Shown in pieces: positions 1 to 28,802 of a stretch of 64,000 bases of DNA. The notes beneath the pieces are model-generated. The model was given only the letters and a program-made list of their open reading frames with translations. It had not been told where the DNA came from and made no database searches. The stretch comes from Phaeocystidibacter marisrubri (GTDB lineage: Bacteria; Bacteroidota; Bacteroidia; Flavobacteriales; Schleiferiaceae), in contig NZ_WBVQ01000002.1 in assembly GCF_008933165.1 (NCBI RefSeq), forward strand, positions 953,569 to 1,017,568, given 5' to 3'. A program made the position numbers and the translations under genes. Each line of letters starts with the position of its first letter. Position 1 is the stretch's first letter.

Positions 1-1614
1 GCTATTGGATTTCCGCACACGAACCGTCATGGCCTTCACTTCTACCAACTCCAAATTCTTACCTGCAAACCAGAATACATCACCGGGTTTCAAGCGAGCA
101 ATAAACCATTCTTCAATAGAACCGAGAAATCCTCCACCCAGCAGACGAACCTGCAACATGGCTTCTGAAACAATGGTACCCATGCTCAGCCGATGACGCA
201 TGGCCACTTTTCGCTTCTCAACAAAATACCGACCGTCCGCATCTATCGCTACTCGATGAAATTCGTCATAGCCACCCAAAGGTTCTCCTCCTGTGGTAAT
301 GAAGTTCAATATCCACAACCACTCTTCATCGGTCATGCTGGAAAAGGACACGGTAGACCTAACCTGCTTCAGCACCACTTCGGGATAGAAACCTTCACCA
401 ACGGCAAGGGTCACCAGCCATTGAATGAGCACATCAAAAGACCGGATGTAAGGAACGCGCTCTTCAATAATATGGGAGTCGATCGCAGAACGGAGAGCCG
501 CAGCTTCCACCAACTCAAGAGAATGAGTAGGGACAAAGTAGATTCGTGAAGTGGCTCCAGGTTGGTGGCCGGAACGACCTGCGCGCTGAATAAATCGAGC
601 AACTCCTTTCGGACTTCCAATCTGAATAATAGTTTCTACCGGACGAAAGTCAACCCCTAAATCAAGGCTACTCGTACAAACCACCGCTTTCAAGTCGCCC
701 GAATGCAACGCATCTTCCACCCAATGGCGAAGTTCTCTACTAATGCTTCCGTGGTGCATCCCTAACCATCCGGCCAATTCTGGGGCAACATCTAAAATGC
801 GCTGGTACCAAATTTCAGCCTGACTCCTCGTATTGGTGAAAATCAAGCAGCTTCCACTCGATTTAATAATGGGAATGACCTTTTCCAATAGTCGAATTCC
901 AAGATGACCTGCCCACGGAAGAACTTCTAGCTCATCTGGCAAGATGGAGGTCACTTCAATACGCTTTTCGTGTTGGGCTCGAATAATCACAGGCTTGGGT
1001 CGGACGGGCTCTGCTCCCATCAAGATTTGCATGGCTTCCTCCATATTTCCTATGGTGGCACTAATTCCCCAAACCCGAAGTTTTGGTCGCATTCCCTTCA
1101 ATGCCGAAAGAGCTAACTCCACTTGAACTGCGCGTTTTGAACCGATCAACTCATGCCACTCATCCACCACCACACATTGCAAGTTTCTAAACAAGTGAGA
1201 AGCCTGCTTTTGTGAAAGGAGTAAGTGCAAGCTTTCTGGTGTAGTGATAAGAATATCAGGAAGCGAAGATTTTTGTCGGCGTTTCTCCGCTTGAGAAGTA
1301 TCTCCGGTGCGCACACCTACCTCCCACGGTAGATTCAATCCTTCTATCGCACGACGAGAGGCTTGTTCAATTTCCTTGCTGAGTGCGCGAATGGGGGTAA
1401 TCCAAATTAACTTCACCCCGGCAGCGGGGAGCTTCGGTTGAAGAATAGCAGGAAGGAGAAGGCTGTAGGTTTTACCACTTCCTGTAGGCGCATTGACCAA
1501 TCCACATCTTCCTTTCTCATAGGCCTCCCACGCTTCCTCCTGAAAGTAAAAGGGAGTCCATCCCATTCGGGCGAACCAATCTTTTGCTGCGTTTATGGGT
1601 GAGGACGATGCCAT
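1..1614 (-). CDS. Lhr-type DEXH-box DNA helicase (ligase-associated type), 3' end outside window
   Basis: The reading frame is open from an ATG at 1614 to the window edge: 538 codons, with the C-terminus missing. Superfamily 2 helicase motifs appear in order: Walker A APTGSGKT (Lys48), TTPES, DEWH (motif II), SATIG (motif III), and QRAGRSGH (motif VI). The protein is an ATP-driven DNA helicase of the Lhr family. The DEWH box and N-terminus resemble the short Lhr form that is encoded with an ATP-dependent DNA ligase and a metallo-nuclease in bacterial DNA repair clusters; the partners would lie left of the window and cannot be confirmed. A -7 box (TACCTTTT) ends 4 nt before the ATG, so the message may be leaderless. 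Family assignment is firm; the ligase-associated subtype is inferred. Confidence 0.88.
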   Translation of the reverse strand, partial: MASSSPINAAKDWFARMGWTPFYFQEEAWEAYEKGRCGLVNAPTGSGKTYSLLLPAILQPKLPAAGVKLIWITPIRALSKEIEQASRRAIEGLNLPWEVGVRTGDTSQAEKRRQKSSLPDILITTPESLHLLLSQKQASHLFRNLQCVVVDEWHELIGSKRAVQVELALSALKGMRPKLRVWGISATIGNMEEAMQILMGAEPVRPKPVIIRAQHEKRIEVTSILPDELEVLPWAGHLGIRLLEKVIPIIKSSGSCLIFTNTRSQAEIWYQRILDVAPELAGWLGMHHGSISRELRHWVEDALHSGDLKAVVCTSSLDLGVDFRPVETIIQIGSPKGVARFIQRAGRSGHQPGATSRIYFVPTHSLELVEAAALRSAIDSHIIEERVPYIRSFDVLIQWLVTLAVGEGFYPEVVLKQVRSTVSFSSMTDEEWLWILNFITTGGEPLGGYDEFHRVAIDADGRYFVEKRKVAMRHRLSMGTIVSEAMLQVRLLGGGFLGSIEEWFIARLKPGDVFWFAGKNLELVEVKAMTVRVRKSNS

Positions 1615-5386: not shown

Positions 5387-8300
5387 CTATTGTTTGATAA
5401 GTCGTTCGTGAACCACTCTTCCATCCTCATTCGTCACTCGGAGAATGTACATGGCATCTGGCAAATGGCTCAAGTCTAAATCAAGTCGGTTTTCCCCAGT
5501 TGCATCAGTGTGATAGAGAACGGCACCTCGAGAATCGAGAAGGTCGATTTGAACGCGGCTAAACGATGTTGCCGACCAATCAACAGTAAAGAATCCACTG
5601 GAAGGGTTTGGATAAAGTTGAAGACTTCCGGCAAGGCTCTCATCTACACCAATTCCACTGATGATCCAGTACGACTTCACATACGTGTCTTTACACCCGG
5701 CCGTATCTTCCACCTCTAACGAGATCTGGAAGTTACCCACGCTTGAATACGTATGCGTAGGGTTTTGAAGGGTTGAAACCGTTCCATCGCCCAAGTACCA
5801 CTTCCAGGTTGATCCCGTCAAACTACTATCGAGAAACTGGATGAGCGTATTCTTGTAGAGCGTGTCATTGGTAACCAAAGATCCGTTCATTTCAATCTCG
5901 AATCCAACGTACAGTGGATTCACAGTAACATATTGAGTGATGGTATCCCATCCGTATGAATTTGAAGCTGTGAGTCGTACCGCATACGTTCCAGGCTTCT
6001 CATAATCATGTACTGGGTTCTGAATGTTGGATATTGTACCATCGCCAAACTCCCAAGAGAACGCTGTTGGGTTTCTCGTTGAGTGATCGGAGAAGTAAAC
6101 CTGTCCTGAACACGGATCAATAATGTTGTATTGGAAATCGGCAATTGGAGTGGCATTTGCCGAACCATTCACACAGAAGGTTTCAATGCCGGCATTGCTA
6201 TTCACTGTAATGCTTGAACTGTAGTTGGAAATCGAAGTTGGAACGAAATCAACAGTTACTTGCACACTGTCTTTGGCAGGTACGGAGAATACCGTCGGAT
6301 TTACTTTAAACACATTGCTAGCCGAAGTAATGCTCGTCACATTCAAGGCCACACATCCATCGTTTACCACCCAAATTGTCGCTGAACTGGTATCGCCCAC
6401 TTGAGTGATAGGGAAGCTCAAACACGTATCGGACAGTCGAATAGATGGTTCTTCGCGAACATCGAAAATAACGGGAACCACCTTCCTAGGGGTTACAGGG
6501 TCATTCGAAAGAACAATCATATCGATGGTATATGTTCCCGCAGGAACAACTGTAGCGTTAAAGAGCAGCGATTTAGTATCGGTTGCACCAACCGCCAACG
6601 TACCAGTTGAAGTAGACGGGAATGTCAACCACGGCGGCATTGCAGAAGAGTAGATTTCTACTTGAACTTCTACAGAGTTTGGCAAGGTTGAATAATACCC
6701 AACACTGGAGTTGTTGTAAACATCTACGTCTAAGGTGCCATCGGCCAGCCAAGTACCCAACGATTGTGTAGGATTTACAAACACAAAGGATACAGTATCC
6801 GGCTGACCAAAGGTGCTTGTTCTACCGTTGGTAGTTGCCAAATAGCTGCCCTCTACATAGAGGTTGTAGTATTCGTACGACTGTTCATAATCACCTACAG
6901 TAATAACGGTGACAACAATGGAATCTGCCGTTGCTGGCGTTCCCGTAAAGGAGTGATTGGTTACCGCTCCAGAAGAAGCGAAGGTCTGATAACTGGTATC
7001 CGCATAGTAATCGCCAAAAATGACTTCATACGTCAACGAACCAGCACCTGTATTCGTCAGGTCATATGTTTCTAGGACAAAGTTGTCGCATTTGTTCAAC
7101 TCCACTACCAAACTATCGCTTTGTACACTTAGTTGAGGAGCTCCTAACCCTAATCCGTTCACACAAAGTGGAAGCGTATCGCTAGAGGCATAAACCCAAA
7201 GCGTATCATCTCTATTACCCATCGCGGTTGGAGTAAAAACCACTTCAACATCAAGGGAATCACCCGGAGCAATGTGCAATGGAAGAGTTCCTTGGAAGGC
7301 ATAATCTCCCGTTGAACTGTTGGTTCCTGTAATCACAAGTGTGTCGCAGCCATCGTTGTAAACCGTAGTCGTATCTATCTTTTGGAGTCCAACAATCAGT
7401 GAATCGAAATCGAGGCAACCACCAGACAAACGCATAGATGCTTCACCATTCACGTCGAATACCACTGGAATTTCAACAACTGCATTTGCAGGATCATTGG
7501 TATTCACTTGTATGACGCCGGTGTAACGACCATTAGGCAATCCTGCAGAGAACAAATGAACCCCAGTATTGGAAGTTGCTCCACTAGCCACTGTGGCGGT
7601 ATCGTTTGTGAGGTAAGCCCAATCTACAGAACCTACATTTGGCGCAACGTATTGAACCAAATTAGCCAATCCCAATTGGGTTTGGACATCATAAGAATAG
7701 AAGTCAAATCCGTAATACCCCACCTTACCTGAACCGTAAGGATGAACGGATACCACACTGTAGGTTGAACTAGAATAGTAAGCCAATTGCTCCAAGCCTG
7801 GGTTGGTAATATTCATATACAAGGTTGCGGAGTACGCATAGAATGCACTTGTATTGATACCCGTAAATACCGGACTACTCGGATTGTTAATGGTGAGGAG
7901 TCCACCGGACGTGTTATTAGCATACGATGCTGTCATCACACCAAAGCCATTGACAACCGAAAGACTGTTTCCGCAAATCACAACGCTACCTCCATTATTT
8001 ACAAAGGCTTGAATGGCCGGCGCCAAGGTAGCTGCGATGGTAGAGCTTATGTTCTCTTGCTCTGCAATCACCAACACATGTGCATTGACGAGGTCTGCTG
8101 TCAATGCTGCCGCGGTTGAAGCCGTAGACTCTGTAATCGTTGCATTTGGCAGATTAGTAGTTAGTGCAGCAAGGGTAGGCGGATATTCACGATTCAGATC
8201 TGAATAGGTCTTAAGCACGGTAACATTCAAGGCAGATGTTGCGCCTCCTTTAATGCTATCCATTTGATAAGTAAGCGGAGAAAGTCCTCCTGCGTTGGTA

Positions 8301-11287
8301 ACCGCGAGGTTGACAAAGAGAGAATCGTCACATGAATTCGTTGAAACATAAATGGAATCTGGAGTAACCGCAAAGTTAGGAGCTCCAATTCCAAGAGCGG
8401 TCAAACAGATCGCCGCGATACTATCATTGCTTTGTATAGTCAGCGTATCCGAAAGCGTTCCAATAGAGGTTGATGTAAAGGTGATGTGCAAGTATGCTGA
8501 ATCTCCCGCTGCAATAGAGCTCGGGCTCATCGTTCCAACAAATTCCGCATTCGTAGAACTCACTCCAGAAAAGTGTAAGGAATCACAACCATCGTTATAA
8601 ACCAATACAGAATCTGTAAGTACATTTCCATTGATCACATTTCCAAAATCAACACAAGATGAGGAAGCCACTACCATGTTTGGCTCCCCTTGGATAGTGA
8701 GTGTCACTGGGAAAGTCAGAATAGGTTGAGATGGATCGTTCGAGCTCAGAATCACATTGTACGTGTACGTTCCACTCACCAAATCACCTACGTATACACT
8801 TGCTTGTACCTGGGTGGTATCATTTGCAGGGGTAGATGCCGTGCTTGGATGGAAGACAAATCGTCCAGATTGACCTGAGATTTGGAAATCATCAACCAAA
8901 TAATGGTCATTACCCGAACCCGTAAAGCTCGATTGATAAAGGCGAATTTGAACAGTGCCTGTTACCGGAATCAAATAGGAATAGCGAGTAGGTGTTGTAT
9001 AGGTATTGTAGATGGTTCCTAGAGTCGTCCAAGTAATTCCGTTTGTAGAATACTGCACGAAGAGATTCTCACCGCCATCTGGTCTTTCACAAGGACTGGA
9101 TGAAAATCCTGGTCGTGCCCAAAAGGAAACCGAGTCAGATCCATATGTGTCAAAAGGAACGGTAATCGCCGAACGATTGCTACCGTACATGGAAAGGGAA
9201 TTTCCCGATCGAGCGTAGCAATGTGCGCCAATGAGGTTCGTTCCAATCGACTGCCAAAGCGCGCTCGGCGTAGTAGAAGCATTAAAATCATCCATAAATT
9301 GACTGGACGTTTGAAGGTCCCAGTTCAATGCCGCCTGTCCTGTATTGATCACCTCCAAATTGAAGTGTACAGAGTCGTTACAACCAACGGAGGTGATATT
9401 GTAAGCGCTGGAATCCAGGGACCCAATGGCCGAAGCCAATCCGGTTGCAGTGAGACAAATCGCCGTATCACCCGCATTGGAAACCAAGTGGATACTATCC
9501 GTATACACTCCTGCGGCACTCGGATTAAAGGTGACGTATAAGTACGCCGTGTCAAAAGGTTCAACCGTTAATGCACTTGCACTGGTCACGAAATCAGCGT
9601 TGGTTGAAGTAATCGAAGATATCACCAAGCTATCACAGCCAGAATTGATGATTTCTACAGAGTCTGTTGTGGTAATCGCGGTATACTGACTCCCATAATT
9701 CAAGCAATACTGATCCAAATCCATGGAACTCGCGCCTTGAATATCCAACACGAACGGAATCGTTTTCAATGAATCTAAACCACTTGAATTGGTATGAATG
9801 GCTACTTCATAATTGTAAGTGCCCGCAATCATTCCTGTCGTATTGATGGAAGCGGTTACTGAAACCGAATTCCCTGCGTTCAACAAACCAGAAGTTTGAG
9901 AAAGGGTGAGCGGCGTTGGACGATTGTCGTCTCTCAATTGAATCAAGTCAAAAGAGATACCCGGAGTGCTACTCGTATTGGAGATCAACAAAGCAGAAAC
10001 TTCAGTTAGAGTGCTATGTGTAAAGGTCAAACCAGTTTGCACCACTGCTCCATTAATTCGCAAATCGTAGGTGTGGGTGGTATAGTTGATATTGATAACT
10101 TCAATCTGATTCCAATTGGAGGTATTCAGTGGGTAGGCATAGGTAGACGTACCCGTTTGAACATAGAGACTTCCGTAACGGATGTACGAGCTATAGAGCT
10201 GCGGACTGTACGGATAGGCTGGATCTTGAATCAAGTAGGTTCTCCCCAAGTACGACGAGGTATAAGGAACCGAAACGTAGTATGAGAAATAATTAGGTTG
10301 TGCTGGGGTGAACGAATTCACTAGACCTTCGTAGGTACTGGTATATCCAGTCAAGTAGAGGTACTTACTTCCCGAAGGAGAAACTCCCGTAAAATTGGTA
10401 GCTCCGAAACCAGTTGCCGCGTTGGGTGAAACTGAAAAACTTCCCAATCCCGATTCAAAATCTTCATTGATGATATAGGGATCAGGAGCGGGCAGCTCGT
10501 AATTGGTCAGGGAATAACCCAGTGTTCCCGATGTATCATTGGAAATCACAAAGCTGCCTTGGGCAAATCCTCCACAAGAAACTGATGCATAAAGCGAATC
10601 TGGAGCAACGGTATAAACAGGCGCACCTTGTACCGTAACCGTCTGACTTGACGATGCTGTTCCTCCACCACAAGTAGTGACCGTCAACTGAACAGTATAT
10701 GTTCCTGACGCTGTATACACGTGACTCGGATCTTTATCGGTACTAGTAGAACCATCCCCAAAATCCCACGAATAATCGCCAGTAGAAGACGTATTCGTAA
10801 ATGAAATTGGGAAATTCAAAGGTGGGTTTGAAGTAGACGTTGTGAAAGAAACCGATGGAGTAGTACTACCTCCAGACGAAATCCAGTCCATGGCAAATCC
10901 ACTTCTCACTACAGAGCCATCTGAAGTAAAGCGCACCGTAGCCGTACCACTTGGTGCAACAATTGGGTTGCCTCCATTCGGAATGGCAGTGCCGTTCGCG
11001 GTTAGTAACAATGCGCCAGTGGTACCAATTCCATCATAGATACGAACATAGTCGCAGCACGATTCCAATTGAAACGCGGTGAAAGTCATACTGAGCGAAG
11101 AACCCGGTGCGGTGATATAGAAAATGCCATTTGCTCCATTGCTATAACCCCCCGTGGCGCCTCCGTGGTCATAGAGTGTTCCGGTACAAGCATTAGATGA
11201 GTCACTTCCAGAATGAGGCACGATGTACTGTGCAAAAGCGATGGTCGAGAAAAACGCCATCACCACTGTGTAGAGAGCTTTTTGCAT
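5387..11287 (-). CDS. giant secreted adhesin-like protein (CUB, PKD, four ASH super-modules, T9SS sorting domain)
   Basis: A 1966-residue surface or secreted protein. The ATG at 11287 is preferred over an upstream TTG because it starts directly with a signal peptide (ending IAFAQ) and follows a TATATTTG promoter. Order, in residues from this ATG: CUB domain (about 30-136, with SCCDYVRIYDG), PKD domain (about 145-222, WDFGDGS), four super-modules (about 223-619, 620-967, 968-1382, 1383-1711), two PKD domains (about 1711-1877), and a type IX secretion C-terminal sorting domain (about 1888-1966, LQLYPNPSSGFFTV). Each super-module has a leader with a conserved Cys, a unique inserted domain, an immunoglobulin-like strand set (GTYTYNV..SNDP) and an ASH/choice-of-anchor-D domain with YNDGCD. 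It is expected to be exported through the T9SS and anchored or released at the surface; adhesion is inferred from domain content. Confidence 0.93.
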   Translation of the reverse strand: MQKALYTVVMAFFSTIAFAQYIVPHSGSDSSNACTGTLYDHGGATGGYSNGANGIFYITAPGSSLSMTFTAFQLESCCDYVRIYDGIGTTGALLLTANGTAIPNGGNPIVAPSGTATVRFTSDGSVVRSGFAMDWISSGGSTTPSVSFTTSTSNPPLNFPISFTNTSSTGDYSWDFGDGSTSTDKDPSHVYTASGTYTVQLTVTTCGGGTASSSQTVTVQGAPVYTVAPDSLYASVSCGGFAQGSFVISNDTSGTLGYSLTNYELPAPDPYIINEDFESGLGSFSVSPNAATGFGATNFTGVSPSGSKYLYLTGYTSTYEGLVNSFTPAQPNYFSYYVSVPYTSSYLGRTYLIQDPAYPYSPQLYSSYIRYGSLYVQTGTSTYAYPLNTSNWNQIEVININYTTHTYDLRINGAVVQTGLTFTHSTLTEVSALLISNTSSTPGISFDLIQLRDDNRPTPLTLSQTSGLLNAGNSVSVTASINTTGMIAGTYNYEVAIHTNSSGLDSLKTIPFVLDIQGASSMDLDQYCLNYGSQYTAITTTDSVEIINSGCDSLVISSITSTNADFVTSASALTVEPFDTAYLYVTFNPSAAGVYTDSIHLVSNAGDTAICLTATGLASAIGSLDSSAYNITSVGCNDSVHFNLEVINTGQAALNWDLQTSSQFMDDFNASTTPSALWQSIGTNLIGAHCYARSGNSLSMYGSNRSAITVPFDTYGSDSVSFWARPGFSSSPCERPDGGENLFVQYSTNGITWTTLGTIYNTYTTPTRYSYLIPVTGTVQIRLYQSSFTGSGNDHYLVDDFQISGQSGRFVFHPSTASTPANDTTQVQASVYVGDLVSGTYTYNVILSSNDPSQPILTFPVTLTIQGEPNMVVASSSCVDFGNVINGNVLTDSVLVYNDGCDSLHFSGVSSTNAEFVGTMSPSSIAAGDSAYLHITFTSTSIGTLSDTLTIQSNDSIAAICLTALGIGAPNFAVTPDSIYVSTNSCDDSLFVNLAVTNAGGLSPLTYQMDSIKGGATSALNVTVLKTYSDLNREYPPTLAALTTNLPNATITESTASTAAALTADLVNAHVLVIAEQENISSTIAATLAPAIQAFVNNGGSVVICGNSLSVVNGFGVMTASYANNTSGGLLTINNPSSPVFTGINTSAFYAYSATLYMNITNPGLEQLAYYSSSTYSVVSVHPYGSGKVGYYGFDFYSYDVQTQLGLANLVQYVAPNVGSVDWAYLTNDTATVASGATSNTGVHLFSAGLPNGRYTGVIQVNTNDPANAVVEIPVVFDVNGEASMRLSGGCLDFDSLIVGLQKIDTTTVYNDGCDTLVITGTNSSTGDYAFQGTLPLHIAPGDSLDVEVVFTPTAMGNRDDTLWVYASSDTLPLCVNGLGLGAPQLSVQSDSLVVELNKCDNFVLETYDLTNTGAGSLTYEVIFGDYYADTSYQTFASSGAVTNHSFTGTPATADSIVVTVITVGDYEQSYEYYNLYVEGSYLATTNGRTSTFGQPDTVSFVFVNPTQSLGTWLADGTLDVDVYNNSSVGYYSTLPNSVEVQVEIYSSAMPPWLTFPSTSTGTLAVGATDTKSLLFNATVVPAGTYTIDMIVLSNDPVTPRKVVPVIFDVREEPSIRLSDTCLSFPITQVGDTSSATIWVVNDGCVALNVTSITSASNVFKVNPTVFSVPAKDSVQVTVDFVPTSISNYSSSITVNSNAGIETFCVNGSANATPIADFQYNIIDPCSGQVYFSDHSTRNPTAFSWEFGDGTISNIQNPVHDYEKPGTYAVRLTASNSYGWDTITQYVTVNPLYVGFEIEMNGSLVTNDTLYKNTLIQFLDSSLTGSTWKWYLGDGTVSTLQNPTHTYSSVGNFQISLEVEDTAGCKDTYVKSYWIISGIGVDESLAGSLQLYPNPSSGFFTVDWSATSFSRVQIDLLDSRGAVLYHTDATGENRLDLDLSHLPDAMYILRVTNEDGRVVHERLIKQ
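6155..10621 (-). repeat. four tandem super-modules inside the giant secreted protein
   Basis: Copies lie at 9431-10621, 8387-9430, 7142-8386 and 6155-7141. All share a leader (xxPDSxYxS..C), a SNDP-containing Ig-like part and an ASH part with NDGCD. What differs is the domain inserted after the leader: a LamG-like jelly roll, a MAM/cleaved-adhesin-like sandwich ending in YLVDDFQI, a glutamine-amidotransferase-like alpha/beta domain (7628-8230), and a Tyr-rich beta domain. Boundaries are approximate. Confidence 0.75.
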
Positions 11288-11310
11288 ATTGTGTTTGGTT
11301 GAATACAACG

Positions 11311-11318
11311 CAAATATA
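11311..11318 (-). promoter_or_regulatory. -7 promoter box of the giant secreted protein gene
   Basis: A perfect TATATTTG on the minus strand, 23 nt before the ATG. A TTG lies 23 nt further upstream (11342-11344) and may be the -33 element. This box overlaps the alternative TTG-started N-terminus in position, which supports the downstream ATG. Confidence 0.6.
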
Positions 11319-11344
11319 CTCCTGTTGGCCAATTAGTTTCACAA

Positions 11345-26818: not shown

Positions 26819-27149
26819 ATTTATACAATTGAAATCTGAACTGATCCTGATGAATTATACGATCCCTGAAGTTCAATAAAAGCAAATGGATATCAGGAAA
26901 AATACCTACCCATTATTAAAAGAAAATTACCCCCTTATCCAGAGGAATGCAATATGGCGAAGAACGATCATCACATGATAAACGACCCATTTCCATTCAA
27001 GAACAAGTGCAAAAACCACCCCATCTACAAGTTTGAACTTTCAATAACGACCAACTAGAAAGAATAACCTACCATATAGAAAGTAATTCAGTTTTTACTT
27101 CATGTGTATCGATAGATTGGAAGTACAAATTTTTAACAATATCAATGCC
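26819..27149. other. AT-rich spacer between divergent sensor kinase and T9SS protein
   Basis: 331 bp without a convincing gene. The sequence is AT-rich and should hold the promoters of both neighbours, but no clear TAnnTTTG box was found for either. An upstream in-frame start for the plus gene at 27102 exists but lacks a signal peptide at that position. Confidence 0.6.
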
Positions 27150-28802
27150 ATGAAAAACATGTACCAGAAGGCCTGCCTTCTTACGAGTTTAATGCTCTCG
27201 CTGACCTCCTTAAACGGTCAGGTTAATCCATCCATGGAACCTGACTTCTTCTACCAAAATCGAATAATCTTCACTTCAAGTGAAGTATCCAGTGCCACAG
27301 TGAATGGCATGGACTTAACAGCCGTAATGGACTATGACAACTCTATCATCCCGCCAGTTGTACATGTTGACATTGTTGACCGAACGGGTGGCGGTGGAGC
27401 CAATCTCTTGCAAACCTTGGTGATCTCATCTCCAAGTGGCGGAAGCTGCAACCCTGGCGATGTCCAAATGACCCATGGTGGAGAAAACCTCTATGTGGTG
27501 TACGACTGTGCCTCACCAATTCCTGGCGGTTCGGAACAAGTGTTCTTAGATAAGTATTACTTCGACTCTTTCAGCGGCTCATATATCCCAATGGCCACAG
27601 CCATTTTCATCGGAGACGGCCGAAGTGCCCTAATCGACATGGGCCCAGAAGGCTTCGGAGGAGTGGTATATTCCAATAGAGACGACATCTTTGTGGCTTC
27701 CGTAGAATCTGACCCTAGCAATGTTTCCAACGGCACTGTAAACGTAAGCCCTCCTACGCTGGTACATACATTGGGAACACCAACGAGTACTTTCAGTTAT
27801 TACGATATCGCTGCACATGAACCATACAGTCTCCCCACGCTCACCGACATCCGCTATACTGTTGCCTTGTTAGACGGAGGTGTCTTGCATGCCATTACTC
27901 TCGACTCACCTCCGGGACTAGCACCGATATTTCACAGTGTAGACGCGTTTTACGACGTAGAAGGTGGTGCACGAGTGCGCATTTGCTCACCAAAAGAAAA
28001 CGGGATGGTGGCTCACACTTCGCCATATACCGAATTCACCATTGCAGTGAACAAAAGCGCGACATCTCCGTACAATGAGGATCTTGGACTTATTACGGGA
28101 GATGCTTCCATTGGAGGACTATCCCCATTTGTTGGAGTGAATAGCATACCTGGAAGTAGTCCATGTACCCTGGCTGTAGATTTCAAGTCGAGTTTCTATT
28201 GTAGCTATGCCATTGATTGGAATCAAAACAGTGCGGTGTCCATGACATGGCATGGACCAAGTGCTGCATGCATGGGAGAAACCTTCTCGGTAGAATTCGA
28301 CCCAACCTCTTCCACCTATTTAACTCCTCCTGGAATGGCAAATGCAGTTTCAGCTATTACTCAAGGAATAGATGAATCTTACGCCCCTATGAGTTCAAGC
28401 ATGAACAGTACGGAGATTGTACCTGTATTTGCTTTACAGAAATATGCTCAATCGGCTCCTAACATTTTTATTGTAGTCTCTGCAGACTATATGATCAAGT
28501 CAAAAGACTTGGTAGGTATGACCGTTTTCCCTTCCACTTATAAAACTGCCTTGGAGGAGAATTTGACAGGTGAATTCAACCTCATCATGGAGAGCGATCA
28601 TCAATGGAAATTAACATTCCCTTCCTTGGAGACTAGCACACAAATCGCCCTTTTCTCGATCTCTGGAGCCCTTGTATTCGAACGTGAAGTAGACGCTTCC
28701 AACAACGAGATCACTCTTTCGCTCGCTGATCTAGCATCAGGAGTTTACGTTGTCAACTGCAAAAGAGGTGAACAAACCGAGAGTTTCCGTATCATACGAT
28801 AA
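27150..28802 (+). CDS. secreted protein of unknown function with T9SS C-terminal sorting domain
   Basis: A 550-residue exported protein. The ATG at 27150 starts a signal peptide (MKNMYQKACLLTSLMLSL, cleaved near SLNGQ); the earlier start at 27102 would bury it. The mature part looks all-beta, with several Cys residues (for example SGGSCNPGDVQM, VYDCASP, HGPSAACMG) and propeller-like strands. The final about 80 residues (LTFPSLETSTQIALFSISG ... LASGVYVVNCKRG) match the type IX secretion sorting domain of Bacteroidota. It sits divergent to a LytTR two-component system. No enzyme motif was recognised. Confidence 0.85.
   Translation: MKNMYQKACLLTSLMLSLTSLNGQVNPSMEPDFFYQNRIIFTSSEVSSATVNGMDLTAVMDYDNSIIPPVVHVDIVDRTGGGGANLLQTLVISSPSGGSCNPGDVQMTHGGENLYVVYDCASPIPGGSEQVFLDKYYFDSFSGSYIPMATAIFIGDGRSALIDMGPEGFGGVVYSNRDDIFVASVESDPSNVSNGTVNVSPPTLVHTLGTPTSTFSYYDIAAHEPYSLPTLTDIRYTVALLDGGVLHAITLDSPPGLAPIFHSVDAFYDVEGGARVRICSPKENGMVAHTSPYTEFTIAVNKSATSPYNEDLGLITGDASIGGLSPFVGVNSIPGSSPCTLAVDFKSSFYCSYAIDWNQNSAVSMTWHGPSAACMGETFSVEFDPTSSTYLTPPGMANAVSAITQGIDESYAPMSSSMNSTEIVPVFALQKYAQSAPNIFIVVSADYMIKSKDLVGMTVFPSTYKTALEENLTGEFNLIMESDHQWKLTFPSLETSTQIALFSISGALVFEREVDASNNEITLSLADLASGVYVVNCKRGEQTESFRIIR

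Follow-up and report, generated by a model that had tools for sequence, protein, structure and literature searches.

The window analysed here, a stretch of 64,000 nucleotides from Phaeocystidibacter marisrubri, carries one very large ORF on its reverse strand. The encoded protein comprises, in order, a putative signal peptide, a CUB domain, a PKD domain, four super-modules, two further PKD domains and a T9SS sorting domain. Searches against Pfam and NCBIfam matched the CUB domain, the three PKDs, several HYDIN/ASH-type Ig stretches, a Reelin subrepeat B and the sorting domain, and the signal-peptide-like stretch after Met16 (MQKALYTVVMAFFSTIAFAQ) was read from the sequence by eye. The region addressed by the original prediction, 6155-10621(-), corresponds to amino acids 238-1726 of the ORF. 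A genome of the same genus (G001, apparently Phaeocystidibacter luteus) showed 51% identity across the whole protein. The features, with the evidence for each, were as follows:

5387..11332 (-), whole ORF: 1981 codons, with Met16 (window position 11287) as the likely start
11231..11287 (-), putative signal peptide MQKALYTVVMAFFSTIAFA: sequence inspection
10868..11227 (-), CUB domain: PF00431, 1e-05
10625..10867 (-), PKD domain 1: PF18911
10496..10624 (-), unit 1, first half of the split Ig host (Cys leader): SfaE alignment, leave-one-out profiles
9914..10495 (-), unit 1, insert, LamG/sialidase-lectin-like jelly roll: 5mqr, Z 19.0
9734..9913 (-), unit 1, second half of the split Ig host: structure comparison, profiles
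9422..9733 (-), unit 1, ASH/HYDIN-type Ig domain: PF22544, PF15780; HYDIN 2ys4, Z 13.3
9305..9421 (-), unit 2, first half of the split Ig host: FimC on model residues 404..648
8870..9304 (-), unit 2, insert, Reelin subrepeat B/MAM-like jelly roll: PF21471; 2ddu, Z 16.9
8687..8869 (-), unit 2, second half of the split Ig host: structure comparison, profiles
8372..8686 (-), unit 2, ASH/HYDIN-type Ig domain: PF22544, best stretch
8255..8371 (-), unit 3, first half of the split Ig host: leave-one-out profiles
7625..8254 (-), unit 3, insert, ThuA/class-I GATase-like alpha/beta domain: 2gk3 and 1t0b, each Z 16.9
7448..7624 (-), unit 3, second half of the split Ig host: leave-one-out profiles
7139..7447 (-), unit 3, ASH/HYDIN-type Ig domain: Pfam, profiles
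7019..7138 (-), unit 4, first half of the split Ig host: FimC/SfaE on model residues 416..642
6644..7018 (-), unit 4, insert, Tyr-rich beta domain: nothing matched in Pfam or NCBIfam
6452..6643 (-), unit 4, second half of the split Ig host: structure comparison, profiles
6149..6451 (-), unit 4, ASH/HYDIN-type Ig domain: PF15780, best stretch; CEP192 6fvi, Z 14.3
5663..6148 (-), PKD domains 2 and 3: PF18911/PF00801
5390..5617 (-), T9SS type A C-terminal sorting domain: TIGR04183, PF18962

The sorting domain scored 36.9 bits with TIGR04183 (cut-off 23) and 54.2 bits with PF18962. The genome from which the window was taken encodes the SprA translocon (TIGR04189, 2588 bits) and contained 111 sorting-domain matches, and the protein is presumably displayed at the cell surface by the T9SS. 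Another putative T9SS substrate lies in the same window: a 566-aa ORF at 27102-28802 (+), with a sorting-domain match near 28617-28796.

The original prediction described four super-modules built on a common frame, each with a Cys leader, an insert, an Ig-like part and an ASH part, of which only the insert would change. The units (401, 351, 410 and 330 aa for units 1 to 4) matched one another by BLAST at E values of 2e-18 to 6e-29, and the four inserts gave no BLAST match among themselves at E<0.01. The whole protein scored 112.1 bits with PF22544 (gathering score 25.5) and 87.4 bits with PF15780 (gathering score 27), in several stretches. When profiles were built without one slot and then scored on that slot against 200 shuffles, the left-out second half of the Ig-like domain (Ig2) plus ASH was recovered at its expected place with 113-166 bits (shuffles at most 7.5). 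The left-out leaders, likewise found at their expected places, scored 10.8-29.4 bits, and the best shuffles reached 6.7-13.0; in every slot the real leader scored above the best shuffle, narrowly so for unit 1 (10.8 vs. 7.0 bits). Failure of the frames to align had been named beforehand as a possible refutation; they do align, and the inserts are what changes from unit to unit. Each unit has four conserved cysteines, one in the leader and three in the ASH domain, a number sufficient for two disulfides.

The leader and the Ig-like part did not hold up as two separate parts: according to the structural models they are the halves of a single HYDIN/MSP/PapD-type Ig domain, and the insert is nested between them. 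AlphaFold2 models were built from the window sequence and its orthologs (mean pLDDT 81 and 78; the pTM of 0.40-0.41 leaves the arrangement between domains uncertain) and compared with the PDB. In PapD-type chaperones the N-terminal domain is continuous, yet it covered both host halves around the inserts. In unit 1, SfaE residues 1-118 aligned over model residues 7..300, spanning the insert (Z 12.5, 2.5 Å, 102 aligned); in unit 2, FimC 1-117 did so over model residues 404..648 (Z 12.5, 2.2 Å, 100 aligned); and in unit 4 the insert was spanned by FimC over model residues 416..641 (Z 11.8, 2.5 Å) and also by SfaE, the two together covering 416..642. For unit 3, with no PapD-type chaperone alignment among the PDB matches listed, the split was assigned by sequence alignment. 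Judging from the predicted strands, the insert would enter after the fourth strand of the leader and ahead of the first strand of the second half, the C-D loop in PapD naming.

The same host was also found empty. Six proteins of other families have units in which 2-5 residues separate the leader from the second half, each such unit directly following one with a ThuA-like insert. Searched against Pfam, an empty host matched PF22544 (HYDIN-type Ig, 1.7e-09) and MSP (1.4e-07), and filled hosts joined without their inserts matched the HYDIN-type Ig models weakly or not at all. The residual identity of the leader correlated weakly with that of Ig2 (Spearman 0.34) and not with that of the ASH domain (about 0), a suggestive link between the two host halves. 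Because the chaperone alignments span the insert, the profiles recover both halves and relatives carry the host empty, leader and Ig-like part are best read as one split domain; by the same alignments and empty hosts, the super-module would consist of a HYDIN/MSP/PapD-type Ig domain, split by the domain nested in it, and an ASH domain behind it.

The identities given to the inserts in the original prediction stood for unit 1 and needed refinement for units 2 and 3. The “LamG-like” insert of unit 1 is a jelly roll closest to 5mqr (Z 19.0), with Z values of 15-16 to other sialidase lectin domains. The unit 2 insert, called “MAM-like”, is indeed a jelly roll, with Reelin subrepeat B as its best match (PF21471, 2.5e-12, 47-52 bits vs. 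a cut-off of 27; 2ddu, Z 16.9, 32% identity). The “glutamine-amidotransferase-like” insert of unit 3 does have a GATase-like fold, more exactly a ThuA-like one (2gk3 and 1t0b, both Z 16.9, 3.1-3.5 Å, 188-196 aligned), and matched Pfam and NCBIfam models below threshold only. A fifth insert type of about 218 aa, here called X5, was found in relatives; X5, the Tyr-rich insert and an insert named for its SYGDGWNG motif had no match in Pfam or NCBIfam.

Frame searches at strict thresholds found related hosts in 23 of 296 genomes of the order, 29 of 395 of the class and 49 of 395 of the phylum, counts that include ASH-only matches and come from overlapping samples. Host-bearing proteins reach at least 6204 aa, with six or more units, and the insert order varies: reelin-LamG-X5-ThuA in L172, ?-LamG-ThuA-X5-Tyr-reelin in L165, LamG-LamG-Tyr-X5-? 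in L171, and Tyr followed by six ThuA in L158. The last of these (G630 C213, 3459 aa) carries its six consecutive ThuA-like units at a spacing of almost exactly 1227 bp, apparently a recent amplification of the unit. Clustering gave 19 insert groups, singletons included, of which at least ten are distinct: LamG-like, reelin-B, ThuA-like, Tyr-rich, X5, SYGDGWNG, Laminin_G_3 (1.2e-27), GEVED (1.8e-18), a seven-bladed beta-propeller (3.9e-13) and a lamin-tail-like domain (1.8e-06, below its cut-off). Outside the class, the same layout occurred with ThuA-like and propeller-like inserts. The same hosts are carried by M4 metallopeptidases (L031), and related frames by proteins that, judged from their sequences, are subtilisin-like and other apparent peptidases. 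Within the order, these M4, subtilisin-like and other apparent peptidases (L031, L032, L115, L116 and L113) have split-host modules behind the catalytic domain, with differing inserts.

Replacement of inserts was followed in the family sample of 88 genomes, in which 26 proteins had three or more readable slots; every comparison is one between species, and many of the genomes are metagenome-assembled. Twenty-one of the 26 keep the order LamG, reelin-B, ThuA, Tyr as far as it is readable, and the other five hold another insert class. X5 stands in place of the ThuA-like insert in slot 3 of G014, G020 and G036 and in place of reelin-B in slot 2 of G017, and a SYGDGWNG domain (122 aa) in place of reelin-B (145 aa) in slot 2 of G100. 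At the level of species, inserts thus differ at one slot between collinear orthologs, so the second refutation named beforehand, that insert domains would never differ, did not come about either. The idea that functional domains are swapped within a fixed scaffold gains support from the X5 and SYGDGWNG replacements, and since orthologs mostly keep the same four inserts, exchange seems to be infrequent.

A further difference was found between G025 and G093. Their flanking DNA, the gene up to the end of the CUB domain (amino acid ~140) and the gene beyond amino acid ~640 are all about 95% identical, but the stretch of PKD1 and unit 1, amino acids ~150-630, is only 34-77% identical per 60 nt. This divergent block of ~1.4 kb is sharp, and its insert has the same class, place and length in both genomes. 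The simplest reading is that recombination replaced one allele by a divergent one whose insert is of the same class. The exchanged block often exceeds the insert, comprising the host plus the insert or a PKD plus a unit.

The replacements might be explained without any swapping of inserts, if an ancestor had possessed extra units (X5 beside ThuA) of which different lineages lost different ones, a case of hidden paralogy. A single clade of X5-bearing frames was not rejected (AU test, p 0.37); for X5, lineages may therefore have lost different duplicated units, and a swap of the insert alone is not claimed; moreover, G017 has both X5 and ThuA-like units, and the frame of its slot 2 resembles that of unit 3. 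Within the slot-3 trio, however, the leader (53-66%), X5 (40-47%) and Ig2 (56-61%) are alike, but the adjoining ASH domain of G014 is only 31-32% identical to those of its X5 partners, against 41-45% to those of five ThuA-bearing species. Because of this drop, the exchanged unit in the slot-3 cases looks like host plus insert. In G100, the halves of the slot-2 host are 61-69% and 60-63% identical to those of the closest congeners (51-69% across the genus, no more than about 42% beyond it), and the insert is unrelated; on these identities, slot 2 of G100 is an insert swap inside a conserved socket. Nor can loss explain a block of equal class, place and length such as that of G025 and G093. Hidden paralogy as a general explanation is therefore judged unlikely, though it keeps real weight for X5.

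Related copies of the gene were also observed. The whole four-slot gene is duplicated in tandem in L042 (5366 and 11498; G062 C22), both copies with the order LamG-reelinB-ThuA-Tyr, a natural setting in which to watch slots diverge. A shorter, two-slot paralog (LamG, reelin-B) occurs at L033/L075 (G036 C177), in a genome that also has an X5-bearing copy. The G098 copy (L118/L070, C75) is broken into two frames of 1467 and 683 aa by a frameshift or an assembly error.

The inserts are probably ligand-binding domains, for glycan or protein, of an adhesin or surface receptor, given the analogy with RTX adhesins discussed below and the predominance of lectin-like, reelin-like and propeller folds among them. 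Binding is the typical role of beta-propellers and of lectin- and reelin-type jelly rolls. They could instead be enzymes or structural spacers, the ThuA/GATase-like insert in particular being an amidotransferase, as its fold and the presence of the same hosts in proteases might suggest. Of 55 ThuA-like inserts, however, 36% had the Cys at the expected place and 2% had the reference His; with catalytic residues so poorly conserved, catalysis by this insert is unlikely, and the enzyme-or-spacer reading as a whole appears distinctly improbable beside a role in binding.

A chimeric contig in a metagenome bin could mimic an exchange between close relatives, and G025, G093, G098 and G100 are indeed drafts of 70-180 contigs, with 5% contamination in G093. 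Such an artefact is nevertheless very unlikely: both junctions of the G025/G093 block are in frame at domain borders, the matching flanks extend for 6 kb and 8 kb, the G093 version of the block recurs in the separate genome G098 (90% identity), and the G025 version is closest to those of G007, G110 and G102. The module-sized blocks might also point to phase or antigenic variation fed by silent cassettes at other sites of the genome, but this is scarcely credible, since the genome of the window holds only four full frames, all in this gene, with a single copy of unit 1, and the G093 block had no second copy outside this gene region in G025, G093, G098, G100 or G007; the donor was thus probably another lineage.

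We therefore favour, with fairly good confidence, a T9SS surface protein with split-Ig sockets whose inserts, host-plus-insert modules and units have been exchanged over evolution. The shaft would be a chain of ASH/HYDIN-type Ig domains. With its two ends adjacent, each insert would bud sideways from the shaft, the host closing behind it and the chain continuing into the ASH domain, so that the host may act as a socket in which inserts with adjacent ends are exchangeable and the shaft is undisturbed. Recombination, the likely route, would have exchanged inserts, host-plus-insert modules and whole units over evolutionary time, and each exchange would alter binding and leave export and shaft unaffected, a modular way to change cell-surface binding that may carry a selective advantage. 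Extended to the phylum, the proposal becomes a plug-and-socket system in which a HYDIN/MSP-type Ig socket accepts binding domains of unrelated structure as plugs at one fixed loop and recombination exchanges plugs and sockets, re-targeting T9SS-exported adhesins and proteases; to this wider form we lean only slightly.

No description of this host-insert arrangement in T9SS proteins was found in the literature searched, mainly open-access papers. The nearest known systems are the RTX adhesins FrhA, MpIBP and AhLap, in which split Ig-like domains, described as BIg-like, project ligand-binding domains sideways, different binding domains sit in different split hosts of one long protein, and the binding domains can be recognised by their emergence from split domains (PMC10865825, PMC12077191). 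As in these adhesins, the host Ig domains of the window protein are discontinuous in sequence and are predicted to enclose complete folded domains. Unlike them, it has a host that is recognised by HYDIN/MSP/PapD-type Ig models and opens behind the fourth strand, an ASH domain follows the host in all four units, one host type is common to at least ten insert classes with replacement at a slot documented, and the protein carries a T9SS sorting domain; no GGxGxD motif of RTX repeats was present in it.

Other parts resemble known families. The ASH domains are members of the choice-of-anchor D/ASH/HYDIN-type Ig group (NF012200, PF15780, PF22544), which the empty hosts also match (PF22544), but the family models describe no split, insert-bearing copy. 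Reelin repeats combine subrepeats A and B, whereas the unit 2 insert is a B-type jelly roll only and is nested in an Ig host. The unit 3 insert shares the fold of ThuA-like and class I GATase-like proteins but is presumably extracellular, and it is nested and without conserved catalytic residues.

The split-domain principle of the RTX adhesins would extend to T9SS proteins of Bacteroidota, where the host has another fold. What is new with respect to the papers searched is that one socket occurs empty, occurs with ten or more different domains, and has been filled anew in close relatives. For unannotated giant T9SS proteins this offers a rule, namely that probable ligand-binding domains sit between split HYDIN-type Ig halves, and the split HYDIN-type host may serve as a natural scaffold in which to study or engineer domain insertion.
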